A stretch of 24,216 bases of DNA from a virus. Shown here one piece after another: positions 1,982 to 22,641 of this stretch. Each line of letters opens with the position of its first letter. Within the stretch, counting starts at the first letter, position 1. The DNA is taken from the IMG/VR virus record IMGVR_UViG_3300025314_000098, positions 1 through 24,216 of that record; one strand, written 5' to 3'. A program made the position numbers and the translations under genes. The notes under the pieces are model-generated. The model had not been told where the DNA came from and made no database searches. It saw nothing but the letters and a program-made list of their open reading frames with translations.

Positions 1982-3586
1982 ATGGAATATGATTTCAGAC
2001 CGATAGAAATTGTTGATTTTAAGCCTTTGCCAGATATTAAATATGCACATGATTATCTAGGTATATTTGCGGAGATAGCTAAGTTTAACAGTACAAAAGC
2101 CAGTGTGGAAGAAAAGTTTATATTTGAAGCGAAACGATGGCGATATTTAATTTGTAACGATTTATGGTTTATTTTATATTTTATTTTGAAAATACCAAAA
2201 GTTAATCATCCTTTTGTAATTAATTATTGCTGGGAAGTAGAGACGGGTCCCAAAGATAAAACTTTAGATATTGGCTCAAGAGAACATTTTAAAACATCAA
2301 TAATAACAATAGCTGAAACTATAAAATTTCTTCTAAAACATCCTGAGCATTGCACAGGAATATTTTGTTATGTAAGGGATCGTGCTGAAAAATTTCTGTT
2401 CTCAATTAAAGAAGCATTAACAACAAATGAAATATTACTAAAATTTTTCCCGGATGTATTATATAGAAATCCTGAAAGAGAAGCGCCTATATGGTCAATA
2501 GAAAAAGGTATCGTTGTGAAAAGAAAGTGTACAAGACCGGAACCGACAGTGGGCGCTTATGGATTAATAGAGGGTATGCCGACAAGTATTCATTTAGAAC
2601 GCAGAATTTATGACGATATTATTACTGATGATATTTGCGAAAATTATGAAATGATAGAAAAAGTAAAAAAGAAATATGATATGAGCCAAAGCCTGGGAAA
2701 GGAAGATGGTGTTCATAGAGTTGTCGGCACTTATTATGCCTATGATGACCCTTTGATATATATCAGAGACAAAAAACATATTTATGACAGAGAAAAACCT
2801 ATTTACCATTTAAGATTCAAACCAGTAACCGATGACGGCACTCCTAATGGTAAACCAGTATTTGTATCTGAGGAATATCACGATTTTCTAAAATCTTTAA
2901 AGACTTACAATTCGCAATATTTGCTTAATCCATCCCCCACAGAAACGAAAAAACTTAATAAAGATTGCTTGATAATTACAAAGCCGCAGGATATGCCAGA
3001 GAGACTATTCAAGTTTTTGATTGTTGACCCATCAGGTAAGAAAGGAACTGGCGACCCAGTGGCTATACTCCTCGTAGGAGTCAATCCCGATAAAGATGAT
3101 AATGGCGCCAGTAATATTTATATTCTTAATGCTATTATAGAAAAATATCCATTACCTGAGTTTATCTTACAAGTGGTAACTATGTATAAGAATGGTGGTA
3201 AAATTCTCAGGATTTGTGTAGAAGAAGTCGGACAATCAACAACAGAGGTACATATTAAAGAAAAATTAAATGCAATGGGCTATTATGTTTCTACTGAAAA
3301 TGATACAATCCAAATTTACAAACCAGCCAAAAGGTCAAAAACAGCAAGAATTGAAGAACTGTCTGTACCATTAATCAATGGTAAGATTCATATTTCTTCG
3401 GCAGTCCCACAAAGATATATTGATATTATAAAATCAGAAATGGAAAATTTCCCTTTTAGCAATGATGACCATGCAATAGACATTTTATCCTATTTCGTAA
3501 TTGACACATTACATGACTATCCATTCCCAAAAGTTTATACAAATATTCAGATTGCTAAACCTATACCAATGGGAGCGTTTACTTGA
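1982..3586 (+). CDS. terminase large subunit (packaging ATPase and nuclease)
   Basis: The motor that drives DNA into the prohead and cuts it. It is 534 residues, a normal length. A deviant Walker A (GSREHFKTS, residues 98-106) lies in the ATPase half. The Walker B is RIYDDIITDD (208-217) and the coupling motif is GTYYAYDD (249-256). The nuclease half has acidic positions fitting an RNase H fold: VDPSGKKGTGDP (D349), VEEVG (E414) and HAIDILSY (D500). The start is ATG 1982, with AAGG five bases upstream. It lies 132 bases after the zinc-ribbon gene and its last codons overlap a small gene starting at 3583. The basic and deviant P-loop is usual in phage terminases. The family call is secure; the packaging mode (headful or cohesive end) cannot be read from it. 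Confidence 0.95.
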   Translation: MEYDFRPIEIVDFKPLPDIKYAHDYLGIFAEIAKFNSTKASVEEKFIFEAKRWRYLICNDLWFILYFILKIPKVNHPFVINYCWEVETGPKDKTLDIGSREHFKTSIITIAETIKFLLKHPEHCTGIFCYVRDRAEKFLFSIKEALTTNEILLKFFPDVLYRNPEREAPIWSIEKGIVVKRKCTRPEPTVGAYGLIEGMPTSIHLERRIYDDIITDDICENYEMIEKVKKKYDMSQSLGKEDGVHRVVGTYYAYDDPLIYIRDKKHIYDREKPIYHLRFKPVTDDGTPNGKPVFVSEEYHDFLKSLKTYNSQYLLNPSPTETKKLNKDCLIITKPQDMPERLFKFLIVDPSGKKGTGDPVAILLVGVNPDKDDNGASNIYILNAIIEKYPLPEFILQVVTMYKNGGKILRICVEEVGQSTTEVHIKEKLNAMGYYVSTENDTIQIYKPAKRSKTARIEELSVPLINGKIHISSAVPQRYIDIIKSEMENFPFSNDDHAIDILSYFVIDTLHDYPFPKVYTNIQIAKPIPMGAFT

Positions 3587-3744
3587 ATGGCGACAAGGAA
3601 ACAAATATTAATGGAATTGATTTCGTAGATACGATCAATCCTTTACATGGACAGAAAATGATTTCTAAAGAACAACAGGCGGCTCTGAGAAAAGAGATTC
3701 TCGATGAGTATTTAATTGATTATACAAGAAATATATGGTCGTAG
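3583..3744 (+). CDS. small protein coupled to the large terminase (TTG start)
   Basis: A 53-residue frame starts at TTG 3583, whose last bases form the terminase TGA stop (TTGA overlap). GGGAG at 3571-3575 lies seven bases upstream, ideal spacing. The peptide starts MNGDKETNINGIDFVDTINP and ends with an acidic/basic helix-like segment. The frame fills most of the gap before the portal gene. The overlap and strong ribosome site argue that it is real and translationally coupled. No family is recognised; from position it could be a small head or packaging accessory protein. Confidence 0.6.
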   Translation: MNGDKETNINGIDFVDTINPLHGQKMISKEQQAALRKEILDEYLIDYTRNIWS

Positions 3745-3779
3745 AGTTGGTAAATTTTTTATAGAATTCCGTTGGAGTT

Positions 3780-3827
3780 ATGCTAGGACATATTGTTAGT
3801 ACGGTTAAATTTGAAAGAGTAAAATAA
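3780..3827 (+). CDS. possible 15-residue leader peptide before the portal
   Basis: ATG 3780 opens 15 codons (MLGHIVSTVKFERVK) whose TAA shares a base with the portal ATG (TAATG). GGAG lies only two bases before the ATG, which is short. If translated, it would couple ribosomes to the portal start, which has only a weak ribosome site of its own. It could easily be chance. Confidence 0.25.
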   Translation: MLGHIVSTVKFERVK

Positions 3828-5872
3828 TGGCAGGATTACTATTAATAAAAAATAATCAGCAATTAGACTCTGAATTGAATCAATATGAAATTGATACAAA
3901 CAAAAAACAATTCGAGTCCAGCCTTGCTTCTTATATTCGTGATGTTTGGGAACAAAACAAACGTGCCAAGCTGGATGTTGAACAACGGCTTCTGAAATCA
4001 CTTAGACAGAGAAATGGTGAATACGACCCTGCGAAATTGGCAATGATAAAACTTACGGAAGGGTCTGAGATTTTCTCGATGTTGACCTATATCAAATGTG
4101 TTGCTGCTGAAGCATGGTTGGCGGAATCCTATTCTACGGTAAGGGGTAAAAGTTGGTCATTAGCCGCAACGCCAATACCGGAATTACTGCCAGAAATTAT
4201 AAATAAAATTAACAATAGGGTATTAGATCAAATATACATTGCAACACAAGTATATCAAATAGAAACCGGTGTGGAAGTCACCCCTGAAGAATTTAATGAA
4301 CTTGCACAATTACATGCAGATGAACTAAAAGAGCAAGTTGTTGAGGCTATTGAAATAGAAGCTAAAAAAGCTATTGATAAAATGTCAAAGAAAATTGATG
4401 ACCAATTAGCAGAAGGAGGTTTCGAAGAATCTTTTGCAGACATAAGGTCTGATTTAGTTACATTTGGTACAGGAATAATGAAGGGCCCAACGCCAAGACG
4501 CAAAATAGATGAATTAAAACATATTCAGACATCTGATGGAGAATGGGATATAGGTTATGGTGATGAAGTCCTTGTGGAATTTGACAGATTGAGTCCATTC
4601 GATGCTTACCCCGAAGACGATGCAGTTGATATTCAGGAGGGTAATTTTATTGAATATATGCGTATGTCTCAGCCTGATTTTGGTGATTGCTTGGGGATGA
4701 AAGGATTTAATGATAAATACATACAAACCGTATTAGAGGAAAGCAAATATGGTAGTTCGTTGACACGCTTGCCAATTGACCAGGAAAGGGCTAATATAGA
4801 GGGTAGGCAGGGCAATATTGGTAGTACAAAAAGGATAAATATAATAAATTTTTGGGGAAGCGTTCCTGGTGGATTACTTCTTGAATGGGGGATGGATGAA
4901 TCTCAAATTCCAAATCCTAATTTAAATTATAATGTAAATGCCTGGTTAGTTGATGGTACTGGATATGTCGTAAAATCGGTTTTGAATATTACTAGGACTC
5001 GCCCATATTCGAAGATATGTTTTGAGAAAATACCAGGTTCGTTTTGGGGTAAAAGCCTGCCTGAAGTTGTACGAGATGATCAGGATATGTGTAATGCGAC
5101 TGCACGGGCAATACAGAATAACACGGCTTTTTGCTCATTACCTATGTCTCAAATAGATGTTAGCAAATTAGTCGATGGTTCAAATTCAACAAAATTATGG
5201 GCTGGCAGGACTTTCCAAACAGATACAAAAGGAATGAATGCCGGGAAAGCAGTTGAATTTTACCAACCACCTTCTGTTGTTGCCCATTTGCTTACAGTAT
5301 TTGATAAATTTAGCCGTAGTGCGGACGAGAAAAGCGGGATACCTGCATTCGTACATGGGGCTGCAAATAGCGGGTCAATAGCCAATACTGCATCAGGTTT
5401 TTCGATGTTTATTTCAATGGCTGGTAAAATTATAGCAAATTTAATACAACATATAGACAGAAAATGTGTTGCAACTATTATTAAACGAACCTATAATTAC
5501 AACATGATATACGACAAAGACCCCTCTATTAAGGGCGATGCCAATGTTGTAGTAAGGGGTTCAAGTTCTCTTATCGTTAAGGAACAAGAAGAAATTCGCA
5601 AAGCTGAGTTTATGAGAGATACGAATAATCCAGTTGATTTGCAAATCATGGGAGTAGAAGGCAGAAAGGAATTACTAAGGGATAGGATTAATTCTATAAA
5701 TAGCCTGGATGCGATTAAAATTATACCGGATGAACCGATTCAGTTTTTCCCAACAGGCGGGAAAGGGGTTGTTCCACAAAAAACATTACCAACCAGAGAT
5801 GTTGCTGGGAATTTATCAGGTGGTGTCGAGGTAAATCAATTTCAGGAAATTTCAAAAAAAGGTGGAATGTGA
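3827..5872 (+). CDS. portal protein
   Basis: The portal is the dodecameric ring at the vertex through which DNA enters and leaves. At 681 residues it is close to the long portals of P22-type short-tailed phages. Supporting features are an N-terminal helical region with AEAWLAESYSTVRGKSW, a long charged helical segment (about 130-200), the DLVTFGTGIMKGPTPRRK region typical of portal cores, and a C-terminal helix-rich part with EQEEIRKAEFMRD. The start is ATG 3827, overlapping a tiny upstream frame. It lies between the large terminase and the scaffold, which is the expected place. A homing endonuclease gene follows one base after the stop. Confidence 0.9.
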   Translation: MAGLLLIKNNQQLDSELNQYEIDTNKKQFESSLASYIRDVWEQNKRAKLDVEQRLLKSLRQRNGEYDPAKLAMIKLTEGSEIFSMLTYIKCVAAEAWLAESYSTVRGKSWSLAATPIPELLPEIINKINNRVLDQIYIATQVYQIETGVEVTPEEFNELAQLHADELKEQVVEAIEIEAKKAIDKMSKKIDDQLAEGGFEESFADIRSDLVTFGTGIMKGPTPRRKIDELKHIQTSDGEWDIGYGDEVLVEFDRLSPFDAYPEDDAVDIQEGNFIEYMRMSQPDFGDCLGMKGFNDKYIQTVLEESKYGSSLTRLPIDQERANIEGRQGNIGSTKRINIINFWGSVPGGLLLEWGMDESQIPNPNLNYNVNAWLVDGTGYVVKSVLNITRTRPYSKICFEKIPGSFWGKSLPEVVRDDQDMCNATARAIQNNTAFCSLPMSQIDVSKLVDGSNSTKLWAGRTFQTDTKGMNAGKAVEFYQPPSVVAHLLTVFDKFSRSADEKSGIPAFVHGAANSGSIANTASGFSMFISMAGKIIANLIQHIDRKCVATIIKRTYNYNMIYDKDPSIKGDANVVVRGSSSLIVKEQEEIRKAEFMRDTNNPVDLQIMGVEGRKELLRDRINSINSLDAIKIIPDEPIQFFPTGGKGVVPQKTLPTRDVAGNLSGGVEVNQFQEISKKGGM

Positions 5873-5873
5873 C

Positions 5874-6338
5874 ATGAAAGAAATACAATTAACACAAGGC
5901 AAGGTAGCCTTAGTTGCTGGTGAAGATTTTGGAAAGTTGAATCAATATAAATGGCATATTACAAAAAAAGGTTATGCCGCAAGGAATATTGTTTTAAATA
6001 ATAAAAATAGAACGCTTCGTATGCATCGGGAAATCATGAATGCTCCTAATGGTATTCAGGTTGATCATAGAGATAGAAATAAAATAAATAATTGTAAATA
6101 CAATTTATGGTTTGCAACAAATCAACAAAATTTATTTAATAGAGAAATGCAGAAAAACAATAAATTAAGAATTAAAGGTGTTCATTGGCGCACAGGCGTA
6201 AAGAAATTTCATGCGCAAATAAAGGTTGGTGGTAAGAAGGTCTTTCTTGGTTTATTCCATGTTATGGGCGATGCTGATAGTGTATATAGGATTGCCGAAG
6301 AAAAATATTTTAAGGAATTCGCACGAAAGGTATGCTAG
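5874..6338 (+). CDS. free-standing HNH homing endonuclease with AP2 domain
   Basis: Predicted selfish nuclease of 154 residues. The N-terminal part has HNH features: RMHREIM (H51), VDHRDRNKINNCKYNL (H65, N72-N73) and FATNQQNLFNR. The C-terminal part (about 100-145) reads as an AP2-type DNA-binding domain: GVHWRTGVKKFHAQIKVGG, then FLGLFH. ATG 5874 has AAGGTGG eight bases upstream; an in-frame GTG at 5862 is less likely. It sits directly behind the portal stop and probably uses the portal's transcript. Such genes spread by cutting related phages that lack them at the same site, and have no structural role. Confidence 0.88.
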   Translation: MKEIQLTQGKVALVAGEDFGKLNQYKWHITKKGYAARNIVLNNKNRTLRMHREIMNAPNGIQVDHRDRNKINNCKYNLWFATNQQNLFNREMQKNNKLRIKGVHWRTGVKKFHAQIKVGGKKVFLGLFHVMGDADSVYRIAEEKYFKEFARKVC

Positions 6339-6379
6339 ACCATGAATTATAAAATTACAGAAAAAAAAGTTTTGAATAA

Positions 6380-6631
6380 ATGCTAAAATATATAGGCGAA
6401 CAAAATGAAAGATTGCTTAAAGCACTTGTTAGTATTCAGCAATATCCTGAATGGAAGATTATCAGGGATTGGATTGATGAAAGCATGGAAGATTTATTGA
6501 TAACAAGTGCAAGGGAAATTAGCGATGTAGAAACCCGATGGAAGCAAGGCGGGGCTATAGAATTATTGAAAATACGTGAAAAATTTGATAAGGCTAAAGA
6601 GGCGATTGAACGGATTAATAACCAGAAATGA
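6380..6631 (+). CDS. conserved-type small phage protein after the portal
   Basis: An 83-residue, mostly helical acidic protein containing QQYPEWKIIRDWIDES and ETRWKQGGAIELLKI. This style of small protein (an aromatic/acidic helix followed by an R-x-QGG segment) is common beside portal or head-tail genes in short-tailed phages; its function is not established to my knowledge. The start is ATG 6380, directly after an in-frame TAA, with no good ribosome site. A 14-codon frame at 6342 overlaps the start. Its end overlaps the next gene (ATGA). Confidence 0.65.
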   Translation: MLKYIGEQNERLLKALVSIQQYPEWKIIRDWIDESMEDLLITSAREISDVETRWKQGGAIELLKIREKFDKAKEAIERINNQK

Positions 6632-6789
6632 CAGAAAATAATGACCAGAAACTTAAAAAAGCACTTGAATTTATTAAAGAGGAAAAGATATTAATGCCCG
6701 GCTTCTACGGTGAAGCTGGAATTACTTTTTCTATAGAAAATGGGAATATACAAGATGTAAAAACTTTGAAATTAAAGAAACATAAATAA
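6628..6789 (+). CDS. small coupled protein (ATGA overlap)
   Basis: A 53-residue frame begins at ATG 6628 in the stop of the preceding gene (ATGA) and ends at TAA 6787-6789. It starts MTENNDQKLKKALEFIKEEK, then has a short beta-like middle (GITFSIENGNIQDV) and a lysine-rich tail. The overlap argues for translational coupling. It is the last gene before the terminator. Function unknown. Confidence 0.55.
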   Translation: MTENNDQKLKKALEFIKEEKILMPGFYGEAGITFSIENGNIQDVKTLKLKKHK

Positions 6790-10920: not shown

Positions 10921-11637
10921 ATGACTGATATATCTACTGATTTAATTATTCAATGGGATATTGCTTATAAGGGTACTTATAGGTCTATAACTGCTACGAA
11001 AAGTTTTGTAGATATTAAACGTAGGATACGGTTATTGCTAAAACCTGAGCATGGCGCATTTATTGATGATTGGATTAGGGATGCGCAGACAAGGCTTGAA
11101 GATGAATTAAGACTTCGGGAGATGGAAGAACATATTAAGGATACGATATTAGAAGGAAATAAATCTATTCGTGTTCCAAATGATTACCTGGAATTGATAG
11201 ATATTTATATTATTGATAATAATACCAGGGCCCCTCTCTATGATAGATTTCAACCAAGAAAATTTATAGAGACATTTAGAAGTGTTGCTACTTCAAACAA
11301 AGGAATGCCGAGATGGTTCTCGATAATAGGTAAAACTATTGAATTCGATAAGTATACCGACAAAGATTATGAATACGGTATTCTCTATTATAAAAGACTC
11401 CCTACCTTAGTGGAAGAAGATGATATTAACTGGTGGACTGAAAACAGAAGCGATTTATTGTTTTATGCGTCTTTGGTAGAAACGATTCCATTTATCGGGG
11501 AAGATAAAAGAATTAATTTGTGGCAAGGCAAAAAGGATAGCCTGATTGAGGCTTTAATAACTAAAGACAAGAAGGAAAAATGTTCTGGCAATGGTAATCA
11601 ATTATATTCTCCTAATTATTTTGAAAGTGGTAAGTAG
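10921..11637 (+). CDS. phage adaptor protein (P22 gp4-like position) with one W-D-I motif
   Basis: A 238-residue protein. The core has the layout of phage adaptors: DDWIRDAQTRLEDELRLREME (helical), SIRVPNDYLELIDIYI, then GMPRWFSIIGKTIEF, a YYKRLPTLVEEDDINWW segment, and a final helix beginning RSDLLFYASLVETIPFI. Adaptors connect portal to tail. The first 20 residues are an extension containing LIIQWDIAYKG, a single copy of the repeat that is expanded in the genes at 15302 and 16167. AGAGGA lies 11 bases before ATG 10921. The core call is fairly sure; the meaning of the extension is unknown. Confidence 0.65.
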   Translation: MTDISTDLIIQWDIAYKGTYRSITATKSFVDIKRRIRLLLKPEHGAFIDDWIRDAQTRLEDELRLREMEEHIKDTILEGNKSIRVPNDYLELIDIYIIDNNTRAPLYDRFQPRKFIETFRSVATSNKGMPRWFSIIGKTIEFDKYTDKDYEYGILYYKRLPTLVEEDDINWWTENRSDLLFYASLVETIPFIGEDKRINLWQGKKDSLIEALITKDKKEKCSGNGNQLYSPNYFESGK

Positions 11638-11639
11638 AT

Positions 11640-12533
11640 ATGTTGCCTTGGCATAGAAAAACACAAAATTATGGAAATTATTGGCATGTGAATAAGAAGA
11701 ATTATCCATATCAAATATTCTTTTATGAAAAAGAAGGCGATACCTATTCATGTAAAGACAAATTTCCAATTATCTGTACTGGTAAAACAATATTTACCAA
11801 AGATGCTTTTGCCGATTATATTCAAAAAGCTCTTGCTCAAATCAATACTTTGGATATGGGTATTTCATTTGAATATAAAGGCTATCAGTCCACAGATAAA
11901 GATGATTTGGCATTCCTTATGAAAGATGGTGTTAATGCAATGGTGTATTATTTTAAACCCCAGTGGGGGGGGCTTTCTGCGCCTTTTTCAGAAAATGAAT
12001 TTGGAATTAAACTTGCGCTTATAAACAATGTGCGAAAAGAGTGGTTCCTAGGAAGTATTCGCCACGAAATGACACATGCACTTGGATTTGCCCATAAAGA
12101 CGATGATTATAAAGGAATTGTGAAACAATCCGTAATTGCAGGGATGGATGGATTGGGTGAATTTTCTGCCGATACAATACATGGCATAAAGACGATTTAT
12201 GATATTGAGAGCAAATATATTATAAATGGCAAAATAGCGATAAATGGTTTTGAGAAAGCACAAATTTTTATATACGATTCCAAAAAGAAAAATATACTTT
12301 ATCAATCTCCAATAGATGCCAAAGGATATTTTGAATTCAGATTAGACTATCCGATTAAAAGATTTAATATGCTGGCTATTGCAAAGAAAGACGATATGTA
12401 TTGGTTCGGAAAATTAAAAAAGAATAGGGTTCTGGGTCGTAGGATGAAAGGATACAAATTCAATGAATTGAAACTAAATGATTATTGCAATGACCTTAAA
12501 TTTATAAAAGACAAAATAGGAGTTAGTTTGTAA
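11640..12533 (+). CDS. metzincin-like zinc metalloprotease with C-terminal beta domain
   Basis: A 297-residue protein. RHEMTHALGFAH (residues 141-152) gives the full HExxHxxGxxH zinc signature: H142, H146 and H152 as ligands and E143 as the catalytic base, as in matrixins and other metzincins. SVIAGMDGL (164-172) sits where the Met-turn would be; M169 is a candidate but the canonical SVM is not exact. DTIHGIKTIYD after it fits the helix that closes such domains. Residues about 193-258 look like an Ig-like carrier domain. There is no signal peptide. It lies between adaptor and fibre genes, suggesting a virion-carried enzyme that digests surface protein or peptide, or one that matures a structural protein. 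The protease family is likely; the target is unknown. Confidence 0.75.
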   Translation: MLPWHRKTQNYGNYWHVNKKNYPYQIFFYEKEGDTYSCKDKFPIICTGKTIFTKDAFADYIQKALAQINTLDMGISFEYKGYQSTDKDDLAFLMKDGVNAMVYYFKPQWGGLSAPFSENEFGIKLALINNVRKEWFLGSIRHEMTHALGFAHKDDDYKGIVKQSVIAGMDGLGEFSADTIHGIKTIYDIESKYIINGKIAINGFEKAQIFIYDSKKKNILYQSPIDAKGYFEFRLDYPIKRFNMLAIAKKDDMYWFGKLKKNRVLGRRMKGYKFNELKLNDYCNDLKFIKDKIGVSL

Positions 12534-14801: not shown

Positions 14802-15302
14802 ATGAGTGTATCAGCAACTGATATAAAATTTTATCTTACTGGCGGGGCGGCAAATTCAAATGTAAATGCTTCGCTTGGTGGCACTACATCAAGTGTAGAA
14901 ATAACAACGGCGGTACTAAACAATCTGTTTGATAATATTAGCGCAGCAGAAGCTCTTGCTGGTGATAATGAATATAGAGCAATTGCCGTGAAAAATACCC
15001 ATGCTACCGATACTTTATATTCAGCAAAGATATGGGGGGATGGCAGTGTCGAAGGAAGTGGATATACTTATCTTAATCTTGCCGTGGATTCTGGTACGCA
15101 ATCAGTAGCAGACGAATCAACTGCACCAAGCGCTCCATCGCTTTCTTTTGATGTATATCCTGTCGAAGGAAATTCCCTTTCGTTGGGAGACATAGCTGCT
15201 GGTGCTCAAAAACGTATTTGGATAAAAAGATCATGTAATGCTGCTGCCGCTGCTTATAGTGCTGATTTAGTAACGCTCACGGTTAAGGGACAGACTACGT
15301 AA
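14802..15302 (+). CDS. phage structural protein of unknown role
   Basis: A 166-residue protein, beta-rich, Ala/Ser/Thr-rich and acidic. The N-terminus has FYLTGGAANSNVNASLGGTT and LFDNISAAEALAGDNEYRAI, a pattern common in phage tail-module proteins of unknown role. AGGAGA lies close before ATG 14802. Its TAA shares a base with the next ATG (TAATG), so it is probably expressed together with the repeat protein that follows. Confidence 0.55.
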   Translation: MSVSATDIKFYLTGGAANSNVNASLGGTTSSVEITTAVLNNLFDNISAAEALAGDNEYRAIAVKNTHATDTLYSAKIWGDGSVEGSGYTYLNLAVDSGTQSVADESTAPSAPSLSFDVYPVEGNSLSLGDIAAGAQKRIWIKRSCNAAAAAYSADLVTLTVKGQTT

Positions 15303-15613
15303 TGAGTTTCTTCGTACTGGATGGTGTATTTGATGTTGAAGAAACATCTATAATCAAATGGAATATTTTGGATTATGGAGATGCTAGTAATACGCTTGAA
15401 TTAAAATGGGATATTTTTAATGATGTTGAAAACGAATTGGAATTAAAATGGGATATTCCAGAAATACCCACAGTTGACAACTCGGTTGAATTACGATGGC
15501 ATCTCCTTGAATTTACAGATTATTCAGATTTAGAATTGCTATGGGATATAATCAATTACGATATTCCCGAATATCAGTTTACAACTGAGAAAAGAGTAAA
15601 ATCATTTATATGA
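15302..15613 (+). CDS. short W-D-I repeat protein (five copies)
   Basis: A 103-residue, very acidic protein. After a short head it consists of five repeats of 14-16 residues centred on [KR/L]-W-[DNH]-[IL], with Trp at 20, 36, 50, 66 and 81 (for example LELKWDIFND and LELKWDIPEI). It ends in EYQFTTEKRVKSF, which matches the end of the large repeat protein at 16167 (KYKFESEERNKTF). The gene starts in TAATG overlap with the previous one and its TGA stop is followed by the next gene's ribosome site. No enzyme motif is present. The strand-turn pattern suggests a beta solenoid or a fibre stalk, or a partner for the larger repeat protein. Confidence 0.7.
   Translation: MSFFVLDGVFDVEETSIIKWNILDYGDASNTLELKWDIFNDVENELELKWDIPEIPTVDNSVELRWHLLEFTDYSDLELLWDIINYDIPEYQFTTEKRVKSFI
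15347..15550 (+). repeat. five-copy W-D-I coding repeat
   Basis: The DNA core AAATGG(G/A)ATAT recurs about every 42-48 bases. The spacers between copies vary in length and sequence. The same core is repeated 18 times in the gene starting at 16167. Confidence 0.75.
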
Positions 15614-15624
15614 AGGAGAAGTTT

Positions 15625-15903
15625 ATGCCAATATTTCACAGTACAGAAGTACGTTCAAAAGCTGATGTTGATAAAGTTACAACGGATAGAATTAATTCAC
15701 TATTTGACAGTCCGGCAGATGAGATGAAATTCCATAGACTTGCATTAACTGGATTCTATTTGCAAATGAATCCAATGGCTCAAGGCGGTAGCAGACGGGC
15801 AGAGATTCAACCGATTATAGAAAAGGTATTGCCAAAATTTGTTGAAATAGAAAAAATTATCCGTGAGGGCCGAGAGTTTAATAAAGAACAGAGGTGGGTT
15901 TGA
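15625..15903 (+). CDS. small helical protein of the tail module
   Basis: A 92-residue protein containing SPADEMKFHRLALTGFYLQMN and a charged C-terminal helix (IEKVLPKFVEIEKIIREGRE). An ATG at 15610 overlaps the preceding stop, but AAGGAGA (15613-15619) is placed five bases before ATG 15625, so that start is preferred. Its end overlaps the next gene in a TTGA junction. I do not recognise the family. Position suggests a virion or assembly accessory. Confidence 0.6.
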   Translation: MPIFHSTEVRSKADVDKVTTDRINSLFDSPADEMKFHRLALTGFYLQMNPMAQGGSRRAEIQPIIEKVLPKFVEIEKIIREGREFNKEQRWV

Positions 15904-16163
15904 GTTATATTGTATTTACATTAGCTGTTAGTGGTTTTGGATATGAAGTCAATAGATTTGGAATAAAAATCAGACAAGAATATATACCAGCCATTTCTGG
16001 TAATACTATAATGTCTCAATCTCAAGCCAATAAACTAGGTGATTTGGTAGATAAGAAAATCCAATTCCATCTAAACCCCGCCGTAACGGTGCAGCAAGTT
16101 AATGATTTATTGAATAATATAAAAACGGCAACACAAATTGTTAATGAAGAATTGGGAATTTAA
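15900..16163 (+). CDS. small protein of the tail module (TTG start)
   Basis: An 87-residue protein from TTG 15900, which overlaps the previous TGA (TTGA); GAGG (15891-15894) is five bases upstream. An in-frame GTG at 15894 would add two residues. The N-terminus is mildly hydrophobic (SYIVFTLAVSGFGYEV) but short for a membrane span. The C-terminal half is helical (VQQVNDLLNNIKTATQIVNEE). Function unknown. The same TTGA coupling is used after the large terminase. Confidence 0.5.
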   Translation: MSYIVFTLAVSGFGYEVNRFGIKIRQEYIPAISGNTIMSQSQANKLGDLVDKKIQFHLNPAVTVQQVNDLLNNIKTATQIVNEELGI

Positions 16164-16166
16164 AAT

Positions 16167-17075
16167 ATGGCATGGACGCAATTAACAGATTTATTAGGAG
16201 CAGCTAGATATTTAGCAGTAGGGTTTAGTATTGATACTACAGGATATGTGGGGCTTGGCAGATTAAATACAGGCGCATTGAGTAATGATTTTTGGGCATA
16301 TAATAGCACACTTAATACTTGGTCACAAAGAGCTAATTTCCCGGGAGCAGCCAGATATGCTGCCGTTGGGTTTGCTATTGGTACAAAAGGATATGTAGGT
16401 TTAGGAGCAGATGCTCTTAATGGATATAAAGATTTTTATGAATACGATCCATCAATTAACACATGGAAGAAAAAAATTGATTTTCCTCAATCAGACAGAA
16501 GGGGTGCAGTTGGATTTGGAATTGGCACAAAAGGATATGTAGGGCTTGGTTTATCAGTGGCCGGTGCAATATTATCTGATTTTTTAATGTTCGACCCAGC
16601 AGGGACTGGAAGTTGGGTTTCAATTGCTACTTTTACTGGCGGTGTTGGAAGATATGCCTCAGTAAGTTTTGTTATTGGAACAAAGGGATATGTAGGTCTT
16701 GGTGAATTAGGCTCAAGCAGAACCGCTTCGTTTTACGAATATAATCCATCAACAAATACATGGCAGGCTAAAGATAACTTTGGCGGTGGAACAAGAGCTT
16801 TTTCCGTTGCGTTTTCCACAACCGCAAATAAAGGGTATGTAGGATTAGGATATGGGGATGCTTCGCCTGTTGGATATAAAACAGACCTTTGGAGTTTTGA
16901 CCCTACATTAGGGTCGGGTTCACAATGGGTAAAAGTATATGATTTTATAGGTTCGGCAAGGTTTGCTGCCGTTGGGTTTGCTATAGGAGTGAATGGTTAT
17001 GTGGGAACAGGAGACACTGGTAGTCTATTATTGAAAGATTTTTATAAGTTCGACCCGACAACTCTATTTTCTGTT
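16167..17075 (+). repeat. six Kelch-like blades (propeller domain)
   Basis: Protein-level repeat of 48-54 residues. Four blades share the segment IGTKGYVGLG or close variants, and several share (F/L)x(E/K)(Y/F)(D/N)Px(x)NTW between blades. The high similarity suggests expansion within the gene. Confidence 0.8.
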
Positions 17076-18005
17076 ACACAGATATTAGGTATAAAATGGC
17101 ATATTTTGCAATCGCCTTCGCCAAAAAGCATAGTATTAAAATGGGATATTTTAGATAAATCTCCAATAACTAAAGATTTAGTTCTGAAATGGGATATTTC
17201 AAATTATGTATATATACCAAATGTGGACTGCGTTCTGAAATGGGATATTTTACAAGAAACCCAGCGAAGTATTTTGTTGAATTGGAATATTGATGATAAA
17301 TCACCAATCTCGTCAAACCGAATTTTAAAATGGGATATTAGAAATTATACACAAGATAAAATATTAAGTTGCAAATGGGATATAGAAGATAAAACACCCG
17401 TATCAAATAACTATATTTTAAAATGGGATATTTATGGTTCCGTACAGAAATCTATTAATTTCAAATGGAATATAGATGGTTTACATGATACACAAGATAA
17501 AACATTAATTTGCAAATGGGATATAGGTGGATACATACAAAAGGATTTAATTTTTGAATGGGATATTGGAGATTTCTCAGATGTTTACCCTATATTGATT
17601 TTAAAATGGGATATTGAACCGTTTGCTAGTTCTCCAACACAAACATTACAATGCGTTTGGGACATTGGAGGTTCAATAGAGAAAAGCTTAATTTGCAAAT
17701 GGGATATATTTGATGAAGACGGCGCTACCGGATATATTTCTGATGAATTAATCCTTAAATGGAATGTTGACGGGCGCTCTGATATTACAAAACAAATCGT
17801 ATTAAAATGGAACATTGCAGCCACGGTAATAGCGAAAGATTTTATTTTAAAGTGGGATATAGAAAGTGAAATAAAAAAGAAAATTGTATTCAAGTGGGAC
17901 ATTGATTCTCAAGGCAAAGCCAAATATAAATTTGAATCCGAGGAAAGAAACAAGACTTTCAGAAGAGAAGTAATCCGTAGAAAACAATTAATTACAACAA
18001 TTTAA
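16167..18005 (+). CDS. Kelch-like propeller fused to an 18-copy W-D-I repeat array
   Basis: A 612-residue protein. Residues 1-303 hold six Kelch-like blades, each with an aromatic W, a short F-x-G-x-x-R turn and a GYVG(L/T)G strand at 26, 75, 123, 174, 223 and 277. This predicts a six-bladed beta-propeller, a fold usually used to bind protein or sugar. Residues 306-580 hold 18 copies of a 14-20 residue unit with Trp at 311, 326, 342, 359, 373, 389, 404, 420, 434, 451, 465, 481, 498, 512, 532, 548, 563 and 577. The end (KYKFESEERNKTF, then a basic tail) matches the 103-residue protein at 15302. A likely reading is a binding head on a repetitive stalk or fibre. It is unclear which end attaches to the virion. 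The ribosome site is weak (GGAA). Confidence 0.75.
   Translation: MAWTQLTDLLGAARYLAVGFSIDTTGYVGLGRLNTGALSNDFWAYNSTLNTWSQRANFPGAARYAAVGFAIGTKGYVGLGADALNGYKDFYEYDPSINTWKKKIDFPQSDRRGAVGFGIGTKGYVGLGLSVAGAILSDFLMFDPAGTGSWVSIATFTGGVGRYASVSFVIGTKGYVGLGELGSSRTASFYEYNPSTNTWQAKDNFGGGTRAFSVAFSTTANKGYVGLGYGDASPVGYKTDLWSFDPTLGSGSQWVKVYDFIGSARFAAVGFAIGVNGYVGTGDTGSLLLKDFYKFDPTTLFSVTQILGIKWHILQSPSPKSIVLKWDILDKSPITKDLVLKWDISNYVYIPNVDCVLKWDILQETQRSILLNWNIDDKSPISSNRILKWDIRNYTQDKILSCKWDIEDKTPVSNNYILKWDIYGSVQKSINFKWNIDGLHDTQDKTLICKWDIGGYIQKDLIFEWDIGDFSDVYPILILKWDIEPFASSPTQTLQCVWDIGGSIEKSLICKWDIFDEDGATGYISDELILKWNVDGRSDITKQIVLKWNIAATVIAKDFILKWDIESEIKKKIVFKWDIDSQGKAKYKFESEERNKTFRREVIRRKQLITTI
17082..17906 (+). repeat. 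18-copy W-D-I coding repeat
   Basis: The core is AAATGGGATAT or one- to two-base variants, spaced 42-60 bases. The spacers fall into two kinds that tend to alternate: longer ones with DK(S/T)P(I/V) and shorter ones with (V/I)QKS or similar. This suggests a two-unit higher-order repeat. The Trp and hydrophobic flanks are the most constant positions. Confidence 0.8.
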
Positions 18006-18006
18006 G

Positions 18007-18600
18007 ATGAATATAATAAACAAACATCCTTACGAGAAATTTCCTGTCTATGCTGATTTTTATATCAATCTCGATAGCAATGAAACTTTAAGTTCTTATA
18101 GCCTTGTCTGTATAAATTTACAGACCGGGACAGGCAGTAAATCTACCGTTGTTGATTCTGATAGCATTGACGGCACGAAAGTAAGGATTGTATTAAAGGC
18201 AGATGCACCGCAAGGCGATCATAAAATTACGGCAAAGGTAAAAACGAGTAATGATAATGATTATGAAATTGATATTATTATAAAAATAAAAGATACAACA
18301 GGGAAGGTAGACAGGTTTACAAAACAGGTCTCAGAGGAATTTGTAGTAATCACTGACTTTTCCAATGATTTGGCTTCAGGCGAAACCATATCAAGTAGCG
18401 AAGTAAGCGCCATTAGGTTATCTGATGGGAGCGATTTAACAAGTAATATTATTGAATTTAGTCAAAAAAGTTCAAAGAAAATACTCGTTGGGGTAATGAA
18501 TGGCACTGATGGGGAATTGTATCGTATCACAATAAAGGTACAAACTTCTCTTGGATATAAATTTCAGAAAAATCTAATTATGAAAGTACAAGAACGCTAA
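18007..18600 (+). CDS. tandem beta-sandwich protein (two related domains)
   Basis: A 197-residue protein made of two copies of one domain. Residues about 5-95 and 105-195 match in order: K(H/Q)xxExFxV, DFxxxLxSxET(L/I)S, a V-x-x-I or A-I strand, then a xxKVxTSxxxxxx strand and a final I-K or M-K strand. The repeat suggests a beta-sandwich pair of the kind found in virion accessory proteins. No signal peptide. It starts one base after the propeller gene's stop with no clear ribosome site, so coupling is likely. Its stop overlaps the next ATG (TAATG). Confidence 0.6.
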   Translation: MNIINKHPYEKFPVYADFYINLDSNETLSSYSLVCINLQTGTGSKSTVVDSDSIDGTKVRIVLKADAPQGDHKITAKVKTSNDNDYEIDIIIKIKDTTGKVDRFTKQVSEEFVVITDFSNDLASGETISSSEVSAIRLSDGSDLTSNIIEFSQKSSKKILVGVMNGTDGELYRITIKVQTSLGYKFQKNLIMKVQER

Positions 18601-20135
18601 TGCCTTATACACAACCATTCAGGCAATCAACCAACAATCCTGGCATAGTAACCAATGCGCCAACAACGGATGTGGTATGGTCTACTGGCAGGAACATCAG
18701 ATTCAAGCATGGATGCGTCTATAAGACGCTAGGTAAGACATTGCTTGCTACTGTGCCAAATAGCTTGCCAATTAGAGCAATGTTTACATTTAGGGCTTAC
18801 GATAATGTATTCAGAACTATAGTTTGTTGTGATACAAAAATCTATGCCTATTCGAAAGAATTTGAGACATATTCGGATATTACACCAAGTCCAGCGCCTG
18901 ATTCAGAATCAACAGATATTTGGCAATTTGCCTTAGTTGGCGGGTTGCCCATACTTACCAATGGTATTAATGGTATATGGAAATGGGCAAATCTCGGTTC
19001 TGTATTGCAAAAGTTGAATATTCCGATGGCTAAGTATATGATAACCTCTATGCACAGGCTTTTATTAGGCTCAATAACTGAAAGCGGATATAATTATCCG
19101 GCAAGGGTGCGTTGGTCGAAAGCGACAAAGCCAGAAATATTTGCTATTGGGAAAGATGGTAAAGGTGGTAGGGCGGATTTTGTTAAAATGACTGGTGATG
19201 GTATCGAGGCATTAGAAAGAATTGTAGGGTTTAGTAATTATAAAAACAGCGTATATGTATTCACAGAACAAAATATTTATGCAATGGATCATTACCAATC
19301 TCCTTATGATTATCAATCCACTATTTTCGCAGAAGGCGTTGGGCTTGTCGGTGCAAGAGCTGTAACGAAAGACAAGTTTGGTATTAATTACCTAATAGGG
19401 CAAGAAGATTTTTATATGATTACCGATACGGTGTCGCCTATAGGTTTTCCAATACGAAATTCAGTATTTCCAAATCTGAATAAGGATGCAATCAGGACTG
19501 CATTTTCATTTTACAAACCAGATACAAAAGAAATATTTAATTGTGTGCCTGTTAATTCTGGCTCGTTTGATACAGCTTATATTTATAATACCGAATTAAA
19601 GAATTGGTCAATATGCGATGTTGATTATACTTGCCATACTTATAATTTCAAGCAAGGCGCTTCTTCCTGGGATAATTTGAGTTTTGGCAGTTGGGATGAA
19701 ATAACAGATAGTCAATGGGACAAGTTAAGCGAAAATGGGGTATTGCCTTATAGTGTTGTAGGTGATACTTCTGGCAATATTTTCAAGCTGGATGATGGAG
19801 CTAACAATAATGGAAAAGCGATAGAAGCCTATATAGAAACTGGTGATATGGTATTTGATAGTACGGTATTCAGTAAAAATATTACGGAGATATTTCCAAG
19901 CGTAAAACCTCAAAGTGCTGATACGCAATTATTGATACAAGTCGGAGCAAGGGAATCTTTGCATCAACAAATCGAATGGTCAGACCCGATGGCTTATACA
20001 ATAGGCGTTGATGAAAAGGCGGATTTTTTGTCAAATGGGAAATATGTTAGATTGAGATTTTATACGAATCAGCTAGATGCTGAATGGATACTTGATGGAT
20101 ATTATTTAAACTATACTTTAGGAGGTTTAAGGTGA
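18600..20135 (+). CDS. P22 gp10-like tail hub / DNA-stabilisation protein
   Basis: A 511-residue protein, beta-rich throughout. The N-terminus (NNPGIVTNAPTTDVVWSTG, then NIRFKHGCVYKTLG) and the later RVRWSKATKPEIFAIG, VYVFTEQNIYAMDHYQSPYD and IYNTELKNWSICDVDYTCH segments follow the layout of propeller-type short-tail hub proteins such as P22 gp10, which is of similar size. This protein would close the head after packaging and carry the tail tip or fibres. It overlaps its neighbours on both sides (TAATG at the start, GTGA/TGATG at the end). The assignment rests on pattern, length and position and could be wrong in detail. Confidence 0.6.
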   Translation: MPYTQPFRQSTNNPGIVTNAPTTDVVWSTGRNIRFKHGCVYKTLGKTLLATVPNSLPIRAMFTFRAYDNVFRTIVCCDTKIYAYSKEFETYSDITPSPAPDSESTDIWQFALVGGLPILTNGINGIWKWANLGSVLQKLNIPMAKYMITSMHRLLLGSITESGYNYPARVRWSKATKPEIFAIGKDGKGGRADFVKMTGDGIEALERIVGFSNYKNSVYVFTEQNIYAMDHYQSPYDYQSTIFAEGVGLVGARAVTKDKFGINYLIGQEDFYMITDTVSPIGFPIRNSVFPNLNKDAIRTAFSFYKPDTKEIFNCVPVNSGSFDTAYIYNTELKNWSICDVDYTCHTYNFKQGASSWDNLSFGSWDEITDSQWDKLSENGVLPYSVVGDTSGNIFKLDDGANNNGKAIEAYIETGDMVFDSTVFSKNITEIFPSVKPQSADTQLLIQVGARESLHQQIEWSDPMAYTIGVDEKADFLSNGKYVRLRFYTNQLDAEWILDGYYLNYTLGGLR

Positions 20136-20713: not shown

Positions 20714-21691
20714 ATGAATAGTGGTAGCGGTGCAAGTTCTGTATTTGAAAAACTTTTACCTGATTTCGCAAAAGAATCAGTAATAAAATATTTAGATCGT
20801 GCCTGGGATTTTTCTCATCCAGATTTGAATAATTACAATATAGACGCTTTGAATGCCTTAGATACTTATGCCGAATGGAATTCTAATGAACAAGATGGTA
20901 TTGAGGCATTAGCGTCAAGAGCAGACGAAGGTTCTTCTATTGCCCAAAAAGGTAAAGATTTATTAGAAGATATATTTGACGGGTTAAAATTAAATGCAAA
21001 CACAAAACTAGATGATGCCTATACCAAAAAAGCAGATATTTTAAAACAACAACTCACAGAAGAAATATTGCCAGAGCTTGAATCAGAAGCACTTTCTTTA
21101 GGGATGCTAGGTAGTAGCGGACATAATATAAGGCAAACAAAAGCAGCCGAAAAAACATTAGCAATATTGGTTGAGTCAAGCAAGGATATTTATTTCGATG
21201 ATTACGAAACTGCAAGGGATATACAGGAAAACTCTCTTGGGCATGGTATTGTATATAGTGGAGAAAGCACAAGGGACGCTGAATTATTAAGGCAGGCAGG
21301 CTTATATAAAAGAGAATACAACCAGGGTAGTCTTGAAGATGCTTACCGGAAATGGACTGCAAATCAAGTCCATGCCATTGCGAAATTGGAAATTTTGGGC
21401 AATGCAGTTCGGGCAACTGTTGGTGCTATGGTAACAAAAACAGAACCATTTTTCACGCCTAAGCCTATGTCGCAAATTGCAGGACTTGCTATGGTTGGTG
21501 CTGAGATGTTTGCGTCGTTTTACAATGGGACTAAACCATCTTCTAGCCAATACTCTCCTGGTGTTTTTGGAATGTCAAATATTGGTGCAAATACTATGGA
21601 ATCAACAATGAATCCAATGTCATTGAGAATGCCTGGTATTGGGATAACTACGATTGAAGGTATGAAAACAAGTACCTCATTAGGGATGTGA
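20714..21691 (+). CDS. putative internal/ejection protein A
   Basis: A 325-residue helical protein, a paralogue of its downstream neighbour. The shared core includes LGHGIVYSGESTRDAE, then LLRQAGLYKREYNQGSLEDAY (residues about 190-211), LEILGNAVRATVG (225-237) and KTEPFF (242-247). A short hydrophobic stretch (MSQIAGLAMVGAEMFASFY) is followed by a Met-rich, flexible tail. Predicted to be carried in the head and released to help build the channel for DNA entry, from its place after the hub genes. AAGG lies eight bases before ATG 20714. Confidence 0.55.
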   Translation: MNSGSGASSVFEKLLPDFAKESVIKYLDRAWDFSHPDLNNYNIDALNALDTYAEWNSNEQDGIEALASRADEGSSIAQKGKDLLEDIFDGLKLNANTKLDDAYTKKADILKQQLTEEILPELESEALSLGMLGSSGHNIRQTKAAEKTLAILVESSKDIYFDDYETARDIQENSLGHGIVYSGESTRDAELLRQAGLYKREYNQGSLEDAYRKWTANQVHAIAKLEILGNAVRATVGAMVTKTEPFFTPKPMSQIAGLAMVGAEMFASFYNGTKPSSSQYSPGVFGMSNIGANTMESTMNPMSLRMPGIGITTIEGMKTSTSLGM

Positions 21692-21693
21692 CT

Positions 21694-22641
21694 ATGAATG
21701 GTTCTAAAGGAACAGCAACAACAGTAATGACTAATTTACCATCCTATGTAAAACCATATATTTTTAGTGGGGCAGGAGGGGCAGCAAGTAATGTAGAATA
21801 TGGGGTTCATGGATATTTGCCTTGGGCTGAGAGATTATTTGAAGAAAAAAACCCCGAACTATGGCGTTATAATGATGATACTTATGCAAGTCAGGATGGT
21901 TATGAAATAAGTGCTATTAATAAATTGGCTAATCGGGGGAGAAATGGCGATTCTCTTATTAAAAACAATGCCATACCGTATATCGAAGGTGTTCTTGATG
22001 GTAATTATCTTACAGGCACAAAAGCTGAGTTTATCACAATGCTTGACAAGGTTATAGACAAGCCAAAAGAAACTATCGAGGATATTTTAGATGAAATTGG
22101 CATTTCTTTATATGTCATGGGTGATTTATCAAATAGTAACCTAGCTAAAGAAAGCGTTGATGAGACAAAATATTATGATAGAATGGGGGCATTCATAAAA
22201 GTACAAAATTACAAATCAGAGCGTAGACGGCAAGAACATGCACTAGGTTACGGTATTGAATATGGTAAACAAGACGTAGTTGATGCTGAAATATTGAGGA
22301 TGTCGGGACTCTATTTTAGAGAATATGAACAGGGAAGGCTTTCTGATGTTTACAAAAAAGAATATGATAAATTAGTTACCAAAGTCAGGCGGCTTGAAAT
22401 ACTTGGTAATGCAGTTAGGTCTCTTGTGGGTAGCCAATCAGCCAAAACTGAACCTTATTATAGAGCAAGTCCGATTGTTGGTATACTAGGTGGGGCAATG
22501 ACTGGTGCTGTTTCTGGTGCAATGCTCGCTAGTTCTCTGATGGCAGAAGGGGCAAAAATCGGAGGTATGGGTGCTGGAGCCTTTGGGGCTATTGCAGGTG
22601 CTGGTGTTGGCGCTCTTTTAGGTTTTTTATCATCTGGCTAA
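21694..22641 (+). CDS. putative internal/ejection protein B with glycine-zipper membrane segment
   Basis: A 315-residue protein, a paralogue of the preceding gene: DAEILRMSGLYFREYEQGRL (residues 197-216), LEILGNAVRSLVG and KTEPYY align with it along most of the length. The last 55 residues are different: a Gly/Ala-rich hydrophobic region (from IVGILGGAMTGAVSG to GALLGFLSSG) with small residues spaced like a glycine zipper. This suits a membrane-inserting, oligomerising helix pair. AGGG (21682-21685) is placed eight bases before ATG 21694; an in-frame GTG at 21688 is also possible. The role is inferred as forming the trans-envelope pore during infection. Confidence 0.6.
   Translation: MNGSKGTATTVMTNLPSYVKPYIFSGAGGAASNVEYGVHGYLPWAERLFEEKNPELWRYNDDTYASQDGYEISAINKLANRGRNGDSLIKNNAIPYIEGVLDGNYLTGTKAEFITMLDKVIDKPKETIEDILDEIGISLYVMGDLSNSNLAKESVDETKYYDRMGAFIKVQNYKSERRRQEHALGYGIEYGKQDVVDAEILRMSGLYFREYEQGRLSDVYKKEYDKLVTKVRRLEILGNAVRSLVGSQSAKTEPYYRASPIVGILGGAMTGAVSGAMLASSLMAEGAKIGGMGAGAFGAIAGAGVGALLGFLSSG

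Follow-up and report, generated by a model that had tools for sequence, protein, structure and literature searches.

A tryptophan-repeat string and a conserved small all-beta partner probably form a beaded virion appendage in unrelated tailed phages

The window analyzed here, the whole 24,216-nucleotide stretch of IMG/VR virus record IMGVR_UViG_3300025314_000098, is a single 24-kb genome fragment whose genes are of the type found in LUZ24/SU10-type short-tailed phages, with a portal of SU10 type. The subject of this work is a short strand-like repeat with the pattern hydrophobic-x-hydrophobic-x-W-[DN]-[IV], here called the WDI unit, and a small protein encoded beside its tandem arrays, here called the partner. 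The partner gene (14802–15302; this gene, the array genes, the adaptor unit and the Gp77-type and nozzle genes below are on the + strand) encodes a 166-residue member of phrog_13135 (E 2.9e-19), our proposed bead, and its stop codon overlaps the start codon (TAATG) of a gene for a 103-residue protein (15302–15613) with five units and the tail YQFTTEKRVKSFI. A 612-residue protein follows, comprising an N-terminal Kelch beta-propeller domain (16167–17066, boundary approximate; Pfam Kelch_3 5e-11, Kelch_1 3.4e-10), an array of 18 units (17079–17903; its first and last W are residues 311 and 577) and a basic C-terminal tail beginning GKAKYKFESEERNKTF (17904–18005), a candidate anchor whose confidence in the predicted local distance difference test (pLDDT) drops below 50 at the end. 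Directly 3' of this gene lies that of a Gp77-type fibre-tail adaptor of 197 residues (18007–18600; PF23148 E 3e-14, 53.7 bits vs a cut-off of 27).

As the initial annotation had proposed, the repeat is common to three virion genes, with one unit in the SU10-type adaptor (gene 10921–11637), five in the 103-residue protein and 18 in the Kelch protein. The single adaptor copy, DLIIQWDI (10939–10962), sits in an N-terminal extension ahead of the PF24175 domain, which begins at residue 29, and this extension is missing from the adaptors of sister phages. Scored with the window's own profile, the copy falls within the range of real units and was matched by 0 of 200 shuffles of all other window proteins; scored with a generic profile built from other phages it is unremarkable. 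Judged by the shuffle test, the adaptor unit is not a chance match. A WDI array was defined as at least three tandem units with an aromatic residue about every 14 residues and hydrophobic residues at W-2 and W+2, which includes both multi-unit proteins of the window, where the W-to-W spacing (14–20 residues) exceeds the usual 14. The gaps along the 18-unit array are 15, 16, 17, 14, 16, 15, 16, 14, 17, 14, 16, 17, 14, 20, 16, 15 and 14; of the two alternating spacer types claimed earlier only a weak alternation is left (13 short/long runs vs 9.5 expected, z = 1.8). The C-terminal motif Y-x-F-x-x-E-x-R-x-K-x-F, also noted earlier, is indeed present in both larger array proteins (YKFESEERNKTF, YQFTTEKRVKSF), and related tails end the small array proteins of the sister phages L055, L212, L222, L243 and L286. 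An IMG/VR search returned no close relative of the 612-residue protein.

The units had also been said to keep a DNA core where codons are free to vary, and to have expanded recently. Tryptophan has one codon, and a silent change is possible at just two sites of the core AAATGGGATAT, which is exact in 11 of the 24 units; the genome-wide preferences are 74% for AAA and 80% for GAT. Conservation of the core is partly a codon-usage effect, and what stands of the first claim is that synonymous codon agreement between units (0.63) is above the value predicted by codon usage (0.48, p about 0.001). The second claim found no support, as units far apart in the array are no less alike than near ones. By these two results, the units have a common DNA ancestry, and nothing points to a tandem expansion of recent date.

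The array is covered by neither Pfam nor PHROGs models. Pattern scans of IMG/VR gave about 60 loci whose arrays are genuine and in frame, out of about 65 viral array loci in total; the arrays have 3 to 71 units each, and in them 804 of 916 W-to-W intervals (88%) are exactly 14 residues. The N-terminal parts of the array proteins vary by phage and mostly lack a Pfam match, and the suggestion that the repeat is mobile is thus borne out in the sense that phages of no mutual kinship carry it behind N-terminal domains that are unrelated as well; profile-type matches with the conserved Trp were found far outside this genome. In KVP40 and its relatives, gp15 has a C-terminal extension that is likewise a WDI repeat, and between KVP40 and R11Z the gp15 cores are 94.5% identical and the extensions differ by 97 residues, or about 7 units. 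Arrays of merely 3–5 units occur on connector proteins.

Several observations were made on individual array loci. Within the gp15 gene of Vibrio phage 1.081.O (L058), the unit DNA at 2182–2375 is publicly annotated as spacers 2–6 of a CRISPR (clustered regularly interspaced short palindromic repeats) locus; this label is a misannotation of a protein repeat. Locus L037 encodes two array proteins (2954–6640 and 1181–2617, with 50 and 17 units), whose tails consist of another type of repeat, L-T-L-x-x-R-S, and a single partner gene was found there. The C-termini of arrays (L200, L289, L204, L168, L004) often carry one to three copies of V-x-P-x-E-N-R-T-L-x-V, a second short repeat that may serve as an anchor. 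Some candidates were discarded: tblastn matches to 'tail fiber' genes of Klebsiella Webervirus and Verrucomicrobia phage P8625 lie on the strand opposite to the gene, reading of the matches in Lactobacillus 521B and Klebsiella KP8 showed no array, and WNIRHKRN..., which recurs in many contigs of IMG/VR, is another kind of tandem repeat and no array. The DNA pattern used to find arrays also caught a recurring open reading frame with GNFWNIRHKRNIWNIRHKRN repeats, unrelated to the array, in several IMG/VR contigs (L005–L054).

The partner family, phrog_13135, has about 167 residues and is annotated as 'unknown function'; the window member matches it over nearly its full length (residues 15–165 on profile positions 24–180 of 182). 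The same family was matched by 12 of 45 genes directly 3' of arrays. Using a profile built from array-adjacent partners, we found it, apart from the window, in 55 of the fetched loci, namely 51 IMG/VR loci, KVP40, F86, 1.081.O and one bacterial contig. Of the 61 IMG/VR loci in which an array was recognised, 42 have it, as do 9 of the 100 remaining IMG/VR loci, and all nine of these carry arrays or array fragments missed by the first filter. The 119 bacterial stretches with the pattern were mostly chance matches or DNA tandem repeats, and the sole real array among them (L168, Sedimenticola selenatireducens) is also the sole one with a partner. In sister phages the gene order is partner, small array, BNR-like propeller, Gp77 and nozzle; a partner followed by a small array of 4–6 units was kept in L055, L020, L243 and L212, and of 10 further array loci tested, 6 have a Gp77 gene 3' of the partner. 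The array genes are surrounded by late structural and lysis genes, and the partner is sometimes several genes away from the array.

As loci, many of them fragments, had been fetched for array-like DNA, which partly shapes this count, the link was retested from the partner side. The family was found in 54 of 50,697 phage records. With three partner queries, full-length members were detected only in KVP40-group phages, EniLVp02 and Alteromonas phage PT15-A5, besides two remote partner-like matches (MT835760, LR756511). In KVP40 the partner gene stands directly 3' of gp15, whose extension is the array. The gene directly upstream of the EniLVp02 partner is a gp15 with about 11 units in which Tyr replaces Trp, and upstream of the PT15-A5 partner a 159-residue protein has aromatics at a 14-residue period, again with Tyr for Trp (P <= 2e-4 and 6e-4 for the period in EniLVp02 and PT15-A5, respectively). 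Both arrays, which add two lineages, were reached from the partner side and are absent from every array search. The association of array and partner is strong.

In L201, array and partner share one reading frame with a single TAG between them and could therefore be folded as a single chain (40 partner homologues). The AlphaFold model of this partner is all-beta, with pLDDT of 90–98 over most of its length, and indicates a small beta sandwich. Compared with viral models, its best match was an uncharacterised siphovirus protein (E 5.6e-10). The partner of L004 has an insertion with a match to a head-decoration family, which would be expected of a displayed protein; remote homologues of the partner sit embedded in long proteins. 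The window array, modelled alone with 36 array sequences in register, is predicted as all-beta with one strand per unit at a mean pLDDT of 64, and a structure search with this model gave no significant match (best E 0.83, beta-solenoid-like). Each unit is a strand of 8 residues in which hydrophobics alternate, the pattern expected of a donor strand.

These observations are best explained, at a probability of roughly 40%, by a two-component appendage in which each unit docks one partner copy. The array would be a string of amphipathic beta-strands, and each unit of about 14 residues a docking strand for one phrog_13135 copy, probably by strand complementation, so that the number of beads would be set by the number of units. 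In short-tailed phages the string would be tethered through its C-terminal tail, encoded beside the Gp77 fibre-tail adaptor; an alternative tether would be direct fusion to a connector, as in gp15 of KVP40 and in the single unit on the window's adaptor. The free end would carry the N-terminal domain, Kelch in the window and other domains elsewhere. The one-strand-per-bead arrangement is ranked first because of the donor or edge-strand pattern, the beta-sandwich partner, the near-inseparable pair and the freely varying unit number. We infer physical binding, strand complementation, one bead per unit and a location on the particle, as well as anchoring by the C-terminus, the last from the conserved tail and Gp77 neighbour in podoviruses and the gp15 fusion in KVP40-like phages. 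Among the roles suggested by the initial annotation, a docking code comes nearest to this proposal, with the correction that the array's counterpart is the neighbouring phrog_13135 protein, neither adaptor nor propeller.

Several results weigh against docking. When eight units, tail and partner of L201 were folded as one chain, no unit docked on the partner; the array part came out as a low-confidence helix, with no alignment available for that part. Foldseek comparison of the partner to the PDB gave a best E of 4.6e-3, none below 0.001, and low TM-scores (template modelling scores); the weak matches, which for their part speak for docking, were mostly strand-complemented proteins (FimA, FimG with FimF donor peptide, the Sulfolobus 0406 filament and CanA), and strand complementation had been set down as the hypothesis before this search. 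For the two remote partner-like matches no array was found within 6 kb, because of which the array–partner rule is limited to full-length single-domain partners. At 19 of the 61 array loci a partner is missing from the available sequence, which for many is a fragment and for some exceeds 12 kb. The window array modelled alone is ordered and all-beta with a predicted TM-score (pTM) of 0.61, which is also compatible with self-folding.

The main rival builds on this last result: the array would fold by itself, as a beta-solenoid or a trimeric beta-spiral or beta-helix shaft, into a fibre stalk, and the partner would be a separate cap, tip or joint that is not bound to each unit. The all-beta model and its faint solenoid-like matches agree with such a stalk, and the Kelch or other N-terminal domain with a tail at the opposite end resembles a tip–stalk–anchor layout. 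However, for a single-chain solenoid a repeat of just 14 residues including an invariant Trp would be very short, the spacing in the window is irregular, the model, although 36 relatives were aligned for it, keeps its low mean confidence and matches no known structure significantly, and the short arrays on connector proteins indicate that arrays are not stalks alone. We regard a self-folding stalk as somewhat less likely than docking. Less probable still is a low-complexity display or linker array that binds the host surface or glycans and is linked to the partner by mere tail-fibre neighbourhood; the location of arrays in late structural and lysis regions and their freely varying copy number would suit it, yet the partner is rare in isolated phages (the 54 records above), and neighbourhood therefore fails to explain why the two are almost always linked in Straboviridae, Schitoviridae and podoviruses alike. 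Least likely of all is that the partner is an assembly chaperone that shields the sticky strands while the array folds and does not stay in the finished virion, since, for all the tight linkage of a small conserved gene to a repetitive hydrophobic-strand protein, the two are at times several genes apart, and the embedded homologues and decoration-type insert better suit a structural part.

Other genes of the window give context. The Gp77-type gene is followed by that of a LUZ24 gp56-like virion protein, a probable nozzle (18600–20135; phrog_3287 6.3e-63; 137 phage records). Between the adaptor and other structural genes, 11640–12533 encodes a protein with the metzincin zinc-protease motif HEMTHALGFAHK (HExxHxxGxxH) and weak Astacin and Matrixin matches, possibly a virion-borne protease going by its motif. 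An 89-residue protein encoded between both array genes (15894–16163) matches DUF4907 (E 4.9e-8), a family that we take to be tied to Bacteroidota and that may hint at the host. An HNH endonuclease-like gene (5862–6338; HNH_3 2.6e-4, under its cut-off) overlaps the end of the portal gene, and two adjacent proteins of 325 and 317 residues (20714–21691 and 21688–22641), for which Pfam returned no match, look paralogous by eye, e.g. in E-x-x-R-x-A-E/A-LL-R-x-x-GLY.

When PDB sequences were searched with Gp77, the array or the tail peptide, nothing useful came up, and in the literature on Trp repeats, phage donor strands and KVP40 gp15 we found no description of, or experiment on, the array or the partner. 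The virion proteome of one KVP40-type phage has been published (PMC12028318). The proposal makes testable a widespread virion module that is unmodelled in Pfam and PHROGs and of which neither part has an assigned function; it would account for the extension at the C-terminus of gp15 in KVP40, a well-studied phage with a broad host range, and assign a function to phrog_13135. If it is true, the beads per string should equal the units per array, and this would be a case of donor-strand assembly with all donor strands gathered on one separate protein. A more tentative generalization is that appendage length is genome-encoded as a donor-strand count in podo-, sipho- and myoviruses, with n units capturing n immunoglobulin- or pilin-like beads and gain or loss of a 42-bp unit altering the length; docking, if true, would be a new way of programming the length of a protein appendage.

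The proposed appendage was compared to known systems. Chaperone-usher pili (FimA/FimG/FimF) also have an all-beta subunit, to which the partner bears a weak structural resemblance, and the alternating-hydrophobic strands of the array could complete an incomplete sandwich so that a beaded polymer would result. In contrast to the pili, the phage donor strands would stand in tandem on a separate string protein of a cytoplasm-assembled virion, there is no chaperone or usher in the phage system, and docking in the phage is our deduction. The neck fibre of Anabaena phage A-1(L), gp82-gp81-gp80, is a neck-attached bead chain made of many copies of a protein of about 170 residues (PMC10966104) and is thus similar in being a chain of small-protein beads, but those beads self-stack as trimers without a string, and hmmsearch of gp80, gp81 and gp82 with the partner profile gave scores below zero, i.e. 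no homology. The tail terminator gp15 of the KVP40 group likewise has the 14-residue repeat, and the same partner gene comes next to it in the 3' direction, with the difference that its array is fused to the terminator rather than to a propeller, and it is annotated only as a tail sheath stabilizer. Finally, the Gp77 module of podophage GP4 (PF23148) corresponds to the gene that adjoins the array in the window and at other array loci, whereas the Pfam model spans the adaptor only and its description includes neither array nor partner.

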